From Burkholderiales bacterium RIFCSPLOWO2_12_FULL_61_40 (GTDB taxonomy: Bacteria; Pseudomonadota; Gammaproteobacteria; Burkholderiales; Burkholderiaceae_C): 64,000 nucleotides of DNA. The translations under genes and the position numbers were made by a program. The notes beneath the pieces were generated by a model that ran no database searches, had not been told where the DNA came from, and saw nothing but the letters and a program-made list of their open reading frames with translations. Location: assembly GCA_001770935.1 (NCBI GenBank), contig MESI01000026.1:51285-115284 (forward strand), read 5' to 3'. Shown here piece by piece: positions 7,409 through 59,152 of the stretch; within the stretch, counting starts at the first letter, position 1, and every line of letters begins with the position of its first letter.

Positions 7409-8620
7409 GTGGCTGAGAAAATTGTTGTCAAAAATCTCTATAAGGTTTTTGGATCGGACCCCGCCCTTGCCATGAAAATGCTGAAAGAGGGTCAGGGAAA
7501 GGACCATATTTTTCAGCAGACGGGCATGGTGACGGGGGTGATCAATGCCAATTTCCACGTCAATGAGGGGGAAATTTTTGTTCTGATGGGACTTTCCGGC
7601 TCCGGGAAATCCACGCTGATCCGTTTGCTGAATCGTTTGGTGGAGCCCACCCACGGGCAAATCATGGTGGGGGGCCACGATGTGGCAACCATGAGCAACA
7701 AAGCATTGGTGGAATTGCGCCGCAAGGATTTGGCCATGGTGTTCCAGTCCTTTGCACTGTTGCCGCACCTCTCCGTTTTGAGCAACACCGCTTTTGGTCT
7801 GGAGGTGGCGGGCGTGGGCCGCAAAGACCGCGAACTGCGTGCCATGGAGGTGCTGGACCAGGTAGGACTCAGGGCCTTCGCCCACAAGTACCCGGCGGAG
7901 CTGTCGGGCGGAATGCAGCAGCGTGTGGGTTTGGCGCGGGCGCTGGCGGTGGACCCCTCGTTGATGCTGATGGACGAGGCGTTTTCCGCGCTGGACCCGC
8001 TCAAACGCACGGAGATGCAGGAGCTGCTGCTCAAGCTGCAAAGTGAGCAGCAAAGAACGATTGTGTTCGTCTCGCACGATCTGGATGAGGCGTTTCACAT
8101 TGGCGACCGGATCGCCATCATGGAAGGCGGGCGCATTGTGCAGATCGGCACACCGGACGAAATTTTGCGCAACCCTTGCGATGCCTATGTCCGGGCTTTT
8201 TTCAAAGGCGTGGATGTGCAGAAGTACCTGGTGGCCAAAGACGTGGCACGCACCGATGCGACGCTGGTCATTCGCCCTACGACAGATATCAGTGCAGACT
8301 TTGCCAGGGCCATTGAACGGCTGCGGGAGATGCGGCGCAACTATGCCTTTGTGGTGGCGGACGACGGCGCTTTGCAAGGCACGGTGTCCATCGATTCGAT
8401 GTTGCTCAGCCTTCAAACAGGGGGGGATCTGATGGCCCATGCCTTGCTCGACGGGATCGGGTCGGTCCACGAAAGTCTGAGCCTGCGGGATTTGATCGGG
8501 CGTATCGTCAAAAACCCGCATCCCTTGCCGGTGGTGAACAACGCGGGGCGCTACCTGGGGGCCGTGACCCAGACAATTTTGCTCAAAAAGATGGTGGAAG
8601 AGGAGACAGCGTATGAGTGA
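7409..8620 (+). CDS. proV: Glycine betaine/choline ABC transporter ATP-binding protein ProV
   Basis: ATPase (403 aa) of the quaternary-amine uptake (QAT) family. Walker A is GLSGSGKST (61-69), the signature is LSGGMQQR (165-172), and Walker B ends LMLMDE (190). The long N-terminal extension before the first strand, with a conserved Phe-Gln-Gln-Thr segment, and the tandem CBS region at about 280-395 are diagnostic of ProV/OpuAA. In relatives the CBS module senses ionic strength or osmotic state. GTG start with GAGAGGA 6 nt upstream. Its end overlaps the permease start by 8 bp. A matching binding-protein gene (ChoX-like) lies 9.4 kb away at 18042. The setting among betaine degradation genes points to nutrient uptake more than osmoprotection. 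Confidence 0.9.
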   Translation: MAEKIVVKNLYKVFGSDPALAMKMLKEGQGKDHIFQQTGMVTGVINANFHVNEGEIFVLMGLSGSGKSTLIRLLNRLVEPTHGQIMVGGHDVATMSNKALVELRRKDLAMVFQSFALLPHLSVLSNTAFGLEVAGVGRKDRELRAMEVLDQVGLRAFAHKYPAELSGGMQQRVGLARALAVDPSLMLMDEAFSALDPLKRTEMQELLLKLQSEQQRTIVFVSHDLDEAFHIGDRIAIMEGGRIVQIGTPDEILRNPCDAYVRAFFKGVDVQKYLVAKDVARTDATLVIRPTTDISADFARAIERLREMRRNYAFVVADDGALQGTVSIDSMLLSLQTGGDLMAHALLDGIGSVHESLSLRDLIGRIVKNPHPLPVVNNAGRYLGAVTQTILLKKMVEEETAYE

Positions 8621-9497
8621 TTTTCTGCCGCTTGGCGATTGGGTCAACCAGGGCGTCAAGTTTGTGATTGACAATGACGGTGGCATGCTGGAGCAACTCG
8701 GTTCAGGCATCGGTACGCTGACTGAGAATATTGAACTGGGCTTGCAGGCCCTGCCGGTCTGGGTGGTTGCTGCCGTTTTGATCGCGACCGGGCTGTGGCG
8801 CGTGGGCTGGAAGTTTGCCCTGTTTTGCCTGGCCTGCTGCGTGGTGATTGACGGTACGGGTTTCTGGCCGCAAACCATGGTCACGCTGGCCCTGATTATT
8901 TCCGCCACCTTCATCAGTCTGGTCATCGGTTTGCCGCTGGGCATCTGGGTTGCCAAGAAGGACCGGGTGGCGGCCATTGTTCGCCCCACGCTGGATTTCA
9001 TGCAAACCATGCCCGCCTTTGTCTACCTGATTCCGGCCGCCATGCTGTTTGGCCTGGGCCGGGTTCCCGGCGTGTTGGCCACCGTGATTTTTGCCATGCC
9101 ACCGGTGGTGCGGCTGACCAGCCTGGGCATTCGCCAGGTCAATAAGGAACAGGTGGAGGCCGGCATCACCTTTGGATGCACACCGATGCAGGTTTTGTTC
9201 AAAGTGCAGATCCCAGGCGCTTTGCCGTCCATCATGGCGGGCATCAACCAGACCATCATGATGGCGCTGTCCATGGTCATCATTGCCTCCATGGTGGGGG
9301 CGGGCGGGCTGGGCAATGATGTGCTGGCCAGCATCCAGCGCCTGGACATTGGCCTGGGGTTTGAGTCCGGTCTGGCGGTGGTTTTGTTGGCGATCATGCT
9401 GGACCGCATCACGGAAACCTTTGGCGCCCAAGGCGTTCGCCTTTCGCTGCGGGAGCGTTTGGGGTTTCGGGCCAAGCGCAGCAAGCTACCGATGTGA
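8613..9497 (+). CDS. proW: Glycine betaine/choline ABC transporter permease ProW
   Basis: Inner-membrane permease (294 aa) of the BPD_transp_1 family. There are about six or seven hydrophobic segments, and the EAA cytoplasmic loop for contact with ProV is recognisable at about residues 182-217 (VEAGITFGC...LPSIMAGINQ). The segment MSMVIIASMVGAGGLG-like (ALSMVIIASMVGAGGLGNDV) is a hallmark of ProW/OpuAB permeases. The gene overlaps proV by 8 bp, so the two are translationally coupled. It directly precedes the regulator gene. Confidence 0.9.
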   Translation: MSDFLPLGDWVNQGVKFVIDNDGGMLEQLGSGIGTLTENIELGLQALPVWVVAAVLIATGLWRVGWKFALFCLACCVVIDGTGFWPQTMVTLALIISATFISLVIGLPLGIWVAKKDRVAAIVRPTLDFMQTMPAFVYLIPAAMLFGLGRVPGVLATVIFAMPPVVRLTSLGIRQVNKEQVEAGITFGCTPMQVLFKVQIPGALPSIMAGINQTIMMALSMVIIASMVGAGGLGNDVLASIQRLDIGLGFESGLAVVLLAIMLDRITETFGAQGVRLSLRERLGFRAKRSKLPM

Positions 9498-58655: not shown

Positions 58656-59152
58656 GTGGCACTCCTTGCCGCTGCCACCAGCCGGTCGAACTGCTCGGCA
58701 TCGACCCGCGCATGGGGTTGTTCATTCAGCGCCAGAGCCGGGGCCGTGGAGCACAGGCCCAGGCAGTACACCGGCGCCAGCGTGATGGCGCCGTCCGCGC
58801 TGGTGCCGCCCTGCGCCGTTTGGCTGGCGTCGAGCGCCAGCGTGTCGCAGGCATGCGCCCACAGGCGGTTGGCACCCATGGCCTGGCAGGCCTCGGCCCG
58901 GCACAGTTGCAGGACGGTAGGGGCGCTCGGCTCGGTCCGAAAGTGGTGGTAGAAGCTGAGCACACCATGCACCTCGGCCCGCGACAGGTGCAACTCGCTG
59001 GCGATCAGGCCCACTGCGGCGGCGGGCACATGGCCCAGGGCATCCTGGATGTCATGCAGGATGGGCAGCAGCGCTCCCGGCAACTGTTTTTTGGCTGCCA
59101 CCAGGGCTTGAATCCGCTCTGGCGGAGGCGTTCCATCCACGACCGATGACAT
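58646..59152 (-). CDS. fdsG: NAD-dependent formate dehydrogenase gamma subunit FdsG
   Basis: A 168-aa NuoE-like subunit with a thioredoxin-type [2Fe-2S] site formed by CRAEAC and YCLGLC pairs. LLPILHDIQDALGHVP and HGVLSFYHHFRTEP are typical. ATG 59152 with AAGGAGA eight bases upstream is preferred to a longer frame from 59203. It is the first gene of the fds operon. Confidence 0.9.
   Translation of the reverse strand: MSSVVDGTPPPERIQALVAAKKQLPGALLPILHDIQDALGHVPAAAVGLIASELHLSRAEVHGVLSFYHHFRTEPSAPTVLQLCRAEACQAMGANRLWAHACDTLALDASQTAQGGTSADGAITLAPVYCLGLCSTAPALALNEQPHARVDAEQFDRLVAAARSATCR

Follow-up and report, generated by a model that had tools for sequence, protein, structure and literature searches.

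Glycine betaine can be demethylated through a corrinoid-dependent route encoded by mtg genes. In aerobic Ruegeria, mtgC and mtgD are essential for growth on betaine, and the same genes occur in marine Alpha-, Gamma- and Deltaproteobacteria, often near those for the later demethylations; they are also colocalised in Sinorhizobium meliloti (Mausz et al. 2025, PMC12478193). That study reports a methionine-synthase role for MtgC and MtgD of Ruegeria, loss of growth on betaine in the mtgC mutant even with methionine supplied, and the presence of MtgBCD in 28 of 239 genomes that have metH. The DNA analyzed here, which we call the window, is a stretch of 64,000 nucleotides (contig C26, positions 51285-115284) from what is most likely a Comamonadaceae bacterium near Rhodoferax. 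Its genes make it very probable that the window holds an island for aerobic catabolism of glycine betaine by MtgBCD(E), similar in type to those of Sinorhizobium and Ruegeria.

A corrinoid MtgB system was reportedly described in Desulfitobacterium hafniense by Ticak in 2014. That system likewise combines a non-pyrrolysine MttB methyltransferase with a corrinoid protein and a tetrahydrofolate (H4F) methyltransferase; unlike the host of the window, D. hafniense is an anaerobe. The GbcAB Rieske monooxygenase route of Pseudomonas has the same substrate and product and also a GbdR-type regulator, whereas its methyl group leaves as formaldehyde rather than as methyl-H4F, and no GbcA-like protein was found in this genome.

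The locus resembles the MtgBCDE systems of Ruegeria pomeroyi and S. meliloti in its four subunits, RACo and DUF1638 proteins, MetF paralog, SdaA, and dimethylglycine and sarcosine steps. Unlike them, it is betaproteobacterial and brings choline oxidation, transport, Sox, Fds and FolD together in one 52-kb stretch, with genes for a HydA-like protein and a CblC-like ferredoxin after the Sox genes; unlike R. pomeroyi, the organism retains MetH. An earlier note on this DNA had called a corrinoid first step in an aerobe unusual, a view overtaken by the Ruegeria mtgC/mtgD genetics and the S. meliloti colocalisation reported by Mausz et al. Judged by its sequence, the pathway is of an already known kind, aerobic MtgBCDE, and is not itself new.

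Gene content of the betaine locus

Gene identities were assigned from NCBIfam, Pfam or PDB matches, and distributions were examined in 200 genomes of the family and 369 of the class. The genome is a 5.0-Mb draft of 132 contigs, 93% complete, so genome-wide absences are provisional. All of the enzymes named in the earlier note were present within 7409-59203, although the matches of ProW, GbdR, SoxG, EtfBA and FdsB to NCBIfam models fell below the curated cut-offs. To that list we add an MtgE/Bmt-like protein (PRK07534), a DUF1638 protein, a PF13769 protein, the HydA-like protein and the CblC-like ferredoxin. One block runs on the plus strand from 11815 to 24512 in the order MtgC, DUF1638, PF13769, MetV, MetF, MtgD, RACo, ChoX, BetB, BetA, PchP, MtgE. 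MtgB lies beyond it on the minus strand, divergent from a plus-strand series of FolD, GlyA, SdaA, SoxBDAG, HydA and the ferredoxin (31903-43487), which is followed by dimethylglycine dehydrogenase (DMGDH), EtfB and EtfA (48476-52639) and then, on the minus strand, by FdhD and FdsABG.

MtgB (30115-31698, with its ATG at 31698) is a non-pyrrolysine member of the MttB family (PF06253, 780 bits, E 5.4e-235), annotated here as a probable glycine betaine methyltransferase. Leucine aligns to the pyrrolysine at position 334 of MttB, and the sole in-frame TAG is the stop codon. The nearest named relative, at 98% identity, comes from a Rhodoferax metagenome-assembled genome. In the PDB its best sequence match is 4yyc, with 2qne and 9yce next; 9yce was deposited as 'Glycine betaine methyltransferase', 2qne is named as MtgB in PMC9842639, and the N-terminal sequence of 4yyc is the same as that of S. 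meliloti MttB in the alignments shown. MtgC (about 11815-12519, plus; PF02310 and PF02607) is a stand-alone corrinoid protein with B12-binding_2 and B12-binding domains, 76% identical to a cobalamin-binding protein of S. meliloti. MtgD (14961-15875, plus; PF00809 and NF005719, PRK07535 type) matches methyl-H4F:corrinoid methyltransferases. Across the cluster of S. meliloti Ak57, identities are 76% for MtgC, 67-69% for MtgB, 67% for MtgD, 67% for MetF, 61% for RACo and 56% for MtgE.

Two genes of the same block point to cofactor reactivation. The RACo/DUF4445-type ATP-dependent corrinoid reactivator (15850-17946, plus, exact start uncertain) matches PF14574, PF17651 and PF17650, and the DUF1638 protein (12529-13146, plus) matches PF07796. 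RamA-like DUF4445 and DUF1638 proteins have been tied to B12 reactivation, for DUF1638 by a fitness link in Phaeobacter (Price et al. 2018, PMC5764234). The small PF13769 protein (13134-13478, plus) is assigned to the cluster by synteny; 'Virulence factor' is a Pfam label only, and the gene sits in the conserved MtgC-RACo block.

MtgE (23379-24512, plus, start possibly at 23433 or 23442) is a Bmt-like homocysteine S-methyltransferase by NF005718 (476 bits, cut-off 338) and PF02574. The locus has MtgB, a stand-alone MtgC, MtgD, MtgE, and RACo/DUF4445 and DUF1638 proteins nearby, all of them features by which an aerobic MtgBCDE system is recognized. Absence of MetH, typical of such systems without defining them, does not hold here: a two-piece MetH with all domains, including the activation domain, is encoded elsewhere in the genome (contig C27), so MtgE is not the sole methionine synthase module. 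MetH beside MtgBCDE has a precedent in the 28 of 239 metH genomes in which MtgBCD occurs as well.

This genome encodes one MttB protein. The GbcA NCBIfam model gave a single match (E 7.8e-13), far below its 670-bit cut-off, and PF00848 found one protein genome-wide, a Rieske protein of 406 amino acids (L002, contig C98). As a GbcA candidate that protein was rejected, with 57 bits against the cut-off of 670 and a match limited to residues 33-130. It is an orphan Rieske oxygenase that weakly resembles carnitine monooxygenase. The earlier note remarked on the absence of gbcAB from the window; across the 93%-complete draft, too, no gbcA-like gene was found.

In the family sample, MttB was found in six of the 200 genomes, three of which are 70-76% complete. 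No genome had a GbcA match over the model's cut-off; near-full-length matches above 400 bits occurred in five (G039, G052, G127, G168 and G170), all without MttB, and in none of the six MttB genomes, so the MttB and GbcA-like sets do not overlap. Some match to the GbcA model was present in 199 of the 200 genomes, and most among the matches listed cover the N-terminal half only.

Upstream of the corrinoid block lie ProV and ProW/ChoW (7409-9497, plus), the ATPase and permease of a betaine/choline ABC transporter (NF007480/TIGR01186 over cut-off; TIGR03416 334.8 bits, under its cut-off of 363), followed by a GbdR-like AraC-family regulator (9498-10604, plus; NF052371 418.5 bits, under its cut-off of 480). 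Within the block are the choline-binding protein ChoX (18042-18992, plus; TIGR03414 over cut-off), BetB and BetA (19045-22335, plus; NF009725 and TIGR01810 over cut-off) and the phosphorylcholine phosphatase PchP (22346-23374, plus; PDB 4as2, E 4.7e-124).

The one-carbon (C1) genes begin with PurU, a formyl-H4F deformylase on the minus strand (10635-11510; TIGR00655 307 bits, over cut-off); its start is at 11510 or 11450, the longer open reading frame, which overlaps the MtgC gene, being spurious. MetV-like (DUF5981; 13478-13948, plus; PF12225) and MetF2-like methylene-H4F reductase (13945-14964, plus; PF02219) genes stand side by side, and FolD, GlyA and SdaA (31903-35564, plus) were assigned by family matches. 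SoxB, SoxD, SoxA and SoxG (35554-40727, plus) correspond to heterotetrameric sarcosine oxidase, with TIGR01373 and TIGR01372 over cut-off, TIGR01375 at 117.8 bits under its cut-off of 143.95, and PF04267. A DMGDH-like protein with DAO, FAO_M and GCV_T domains by Pfam (48476-50932, plus) precedes the electron-transfer flavoprotein (ETF) genes EtfB and EtfA (50942-52639, plus). FdhD, FdsA, FdsB and FdsG (53320-59203, minus) match an NAD-linked formate dehydrogenase, with TIGR00129, TIGR01591 and NF004638 over cut-off; FdsB has NuoF-family similarity.

These family matches, with one MttB and no gbcA-like gene found, uphold the pathway put forward in the earlier note, in which corrinoid betaine demethylation feeds H4F-linked C1 oxidation. 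Betaine would be imported, or made from choline or phosphocholine by PchP and BetAB. MtgB would then move one methyl group to the Co(I) of MtgC, leaving dimethylglycine, and MtgD would pass it on to H4F. MetVF would oxidize methyl-H4F to methylene-H4F, and FolD, PurU and FdsGBA would take the C1 unit on to formate and CO2. DMGDH with its ETF, then SoxBDAG, would remove the remaining two methyl groups, and GlyA and SdaA would convert glycine and methylene-H4F to serine and pyruvate. RACo and DUF1638 would bring corrinoid back to its reduced state when it has lapsed to Co(II), and HydA and the CblC-like ferredoxin may help to handle B12 for the methyltransferase.

The HydA-like protein and the CblC-like ferredoxin

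The gene for the HydA-like protein (40732-42753, plus; PF05378/PF01968) directly follows soxG, and that for the ferredoxin (42765-43487, plus) directly follows HydA. HydA is an ASKHA protein of the hydantoinase-A family, with the nucleotide motifs of that superfamily and, by its predicted model and fold matches, the overall fold of hydantoinase A and ATP-dependent amidohydrolases. The GAGGGS segment of the 6yra type is not kept: the corresponding segment reads GLGGDS in 43 of 44 HydA entries and ALGGDS in the other, and GLGGDS is also found in L099 and L116, which are not counted among the 44. The ferredoxin is predicted to begin with an MMACHC-like fold followed by two putative [4Fe-4S] sites. 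Its model is nearest the human MMACHC/CblC fold, at moderate confidence (mean pLDDT 67.5), and no sequence-level match to the MMACHC (CblC)/reductive dehalogenase/QueG fold family was found; unlike human MMACHC and that family, it carries eight invariant cysteines in its C-terminal part.

HydA is co-inherited with MttB. It occurs in exactly the same six of 200 family genomes; of the 369 class genomes, 17 have it, each of them together with MttB. It lies near mttB in Azoarcus and Denitromonas and beside RACo in Pseudomonas and Billgrantia, and in S. meliloti and Paracoccus the gene immediately after mttB encodes an ortholog of the ferredoxin. A gene of the N-methylhydantoinase-A type also lies in the betaine methyltransferase cluster of the anaerobe DCMF, a likeness by description only; its product was more abundant on betaine and was given no function (Holland et al. 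2022, PMC9768040). The main text of Mausz et al. makes no mention of ferredoxin, hydantoinase or MMACHC, and a word search found none of these terms in a 2025 study of the methionine synthases of Phaeobacter (PMC12366255). We recognized no treatment of the pair among the matches listed in the open-licence literature, a search that leaves subscription papers mostly uncovered.

We propose that HydA and the CblC-like ferredoxin may be an overlooked aid to B12 loading or reactivation for the MtgB-type methyltransferase. Tentatively, the two could form an unrecognized ATP-using module for B12 loading and reductive activation, dedicated to aerobic MttB-type methyltransferases, which would also work in S. 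meliloti and Paracoccus. The ferredoxin, as a [4Fe-4S] bacterial relative of human CblC, would dock the corrinoid for MtgC, and the ASKHA ATPase of hydantoinase lineage would power, in the presence of oxygen, either electron transfer at low potential or insertion of the cofactor. It is somewhat unlikely that the pair instead serves a catabolic side route, from creatinine or N-methylhydantoin to sarcosine, with no part in B12 handling. HydA does belong to the hydantoinase/caprolactamase/acetone carboxylase fold family and stands directly after soxG, where sarcosine is consumed, and several alphaproteobacterial records have HydA without mttB within the flanks examined. On the other side, no hydantoinase-B partner was found among the window genes scanned (the genome was not searched for PF02538), and all HydA genomes in both samples have MttB. 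The HydA genes of Azoarcus, Denitromonas, Pseudomonas and Billgrantia have no Sox gene in the adjoining stretch, the last two loci ending inside HydA, and in S. meliloti and Paracoccus the ferredoxin ortholog follows mttB itself.

Two further observations concern HydA. A second, more distant paralog (37-47%) occurs in L015, L016, L019, L020, L021, L100 and L101, within MtgB-centered Comamonadaceae loci or in genomes that encode more than one MttB protein. The 738-kb plasmid pAZKH of Azoarcus sp. KH32C (L129), typed as mobilizable in PLSDB, carries mttB, HydA, betAB, choX, RACo and mtgD.

A shared direct repeat and neighboring genes

A putative GbdR-type operator, TTGTCG-N6-GACAA-N4-AAGTCG, lies upstream of ProV (7270-7296, plus), and a second perfect copy lies upstream of MtgC (11686-11712, plus). 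This 27-bp pattern, shared by the two regions without mismatch, is found nowhere else in the window and contains a 21-bp direct repeat, GTCG-N17-GTCG. The Pseudomonas aeruginosa CdhR site GGTCGC-N15-GGTCGC, described as very similar to the GbdR, SouR and ArgR sites (PMC5806209), has the same 21-bp spacing. GTCG-N17-GTCG occurs in the upstream regions of ProV, MtgC, MtgB/FolD (31801-31825, plus, in the divergent promoter region, from a repeat scan), FolD/GlyA and AbcS. The AbcS gene (27388-28485) encodes the substrate-binding component of an ABC transporter located between the two halves of the locus.

The window contains 12 such repeats on both strands, six of them within 12 chosen upstream regions that make up 4.6% of the sequence; with the two discovery sites left out, four of 10 fall in these regions (binomial 7.6e-4). 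The region list was revised before the count, with the gap before FdhD taken out, the GguA upstream region added and the others widened by some tens of bases; the omitted FdhD gap has no site, so none was hidden by the change. Among other genomes, the region upstream of MtgB was examined in 43 of 80 MttB loci. Of 21 Comamonadaceae-like loci, 18 had the repeat (19 sites, where shuffling gives an expectation of 0.33), as did four of the 22 others (5 sites, 0.47 expected). The pattern TGTCG-N6-GACA-N5-AGTCG had no match in 126 loci; such conservation as there is concerns the looser 21-bp direct repeat alone, and it is clear among the Comamonadaceae-like loci. The GbdR-like protein may bind the GTCG-N17-GTCG sites, and it is plausible that transport, the corrinoid block, MtgB and FolD-Sox belong to one GbdR-type regulon.

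The ABC transporter that includes AbcS (24584-28485) is of the 2-aminoethylphosphonate/polyamine type and, with its upstream repeat, may be one more means of amine uptake within that regulon. A dyad scan also revealed an inverted near-copy of roughly 85 bases in the BetB-BetA gap (20545-20659) and before FdhD (52984-53100). Unrelated defense and toxin-antitoxin genes lie inside the betaine stretch. Two small plus-strand open reading frames between the AbcS gene and FolB (28768-29588) resemble a HigBA-type toxin-antitoxin pair, and a MazE/PIN pair beside RloB-like and AAA_21 (RloA/Abi-like) genes (45100-47852) makes up a small defense islet. The first part of the window (1-7165), unrelated to betaine, encodes the sugar ABC transporter GguAB and a 2-keto-3-deoxy-galactonate-type pathway (aldehyde dehydrogenase, DGOK kinase and aldolase).

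Substrate of MtgB and reading of the locus

MtgB could act on another quaternary amine (proline betaine, carnitine, gamma-butyrobetaine, choline or phosphocholine), with betaine demethylated elsewhere. Members of the MttB superfamily differ in substrate in Eubacterium (PMC12478193), and several related genomes have at least two MttB proteins. The window's genome has only one, whose neighbors are ChoX, ProVW, the GbdR-like regulator, BetAB, DMGDH and Sox. With no GbcA-like alternative found, and one of the closest solved relatives deposited as a glycine betaine methyltransferase, we regard this possibility as improbable. That the BHMT-like protein at 23379-24512 demethylates betaine directly onto homocysteine, leaving the corrinoid genes to methionine synthesis or C1 metabolism only, is very improbable: the NF005718 family is named betaine--homocysteine S-methyltransferase (BHMT), but in a PDB search the protein matches methionine-synthase N-domains (E 2.2e-46) better than it does any BHMT entry (best E 1.7e-18), Mausz et al. 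argue that the homolog in S. meliloti is MtgE and lacks the betaine-binding residues (PMC12478193), and homocysteine-limited flux should not sustain growth on betaine as a carbon source.

Several points nevertheless weigh against the reading as a betaine catabolic island. MtgB specificity in aerobes appears to be homology-based, the Ruegeria mutants having been in mtgC and mtgD, not mtgB (PMC12478193). Because a two-piece MetH is present, this organism has no need of the methionine-synthase role shown for MtgC and MtgD in Ruegeria, and MtgE may have another function. In a 93%-complete draft, gbcAB may have been missed. The GTCG-N17-GTCG repeat is absent from the upstream regions of ChoX, BetB, BetA, DMGDH and Fds/LysR, as it is from the gap before FdhD; the 'one regulon' of the earlier note is therefore supported at the five upstream regions that have the repeat and not at these genes.

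An aerobic MtgBCD(E) island with betaine as its probable substrate remains the reading that we favor, and it extends the aerobic corrinoid route for betaine to a betaproteobacterium of the Comamonadaceae. The MttB-linked HydA and the mttB-adjacent ferredoxin would provide two concrete candidates for the upkeep of Co(I) in oxygen-exposed cells, which can be mutated in, among others, the genetic model S. meliloti.

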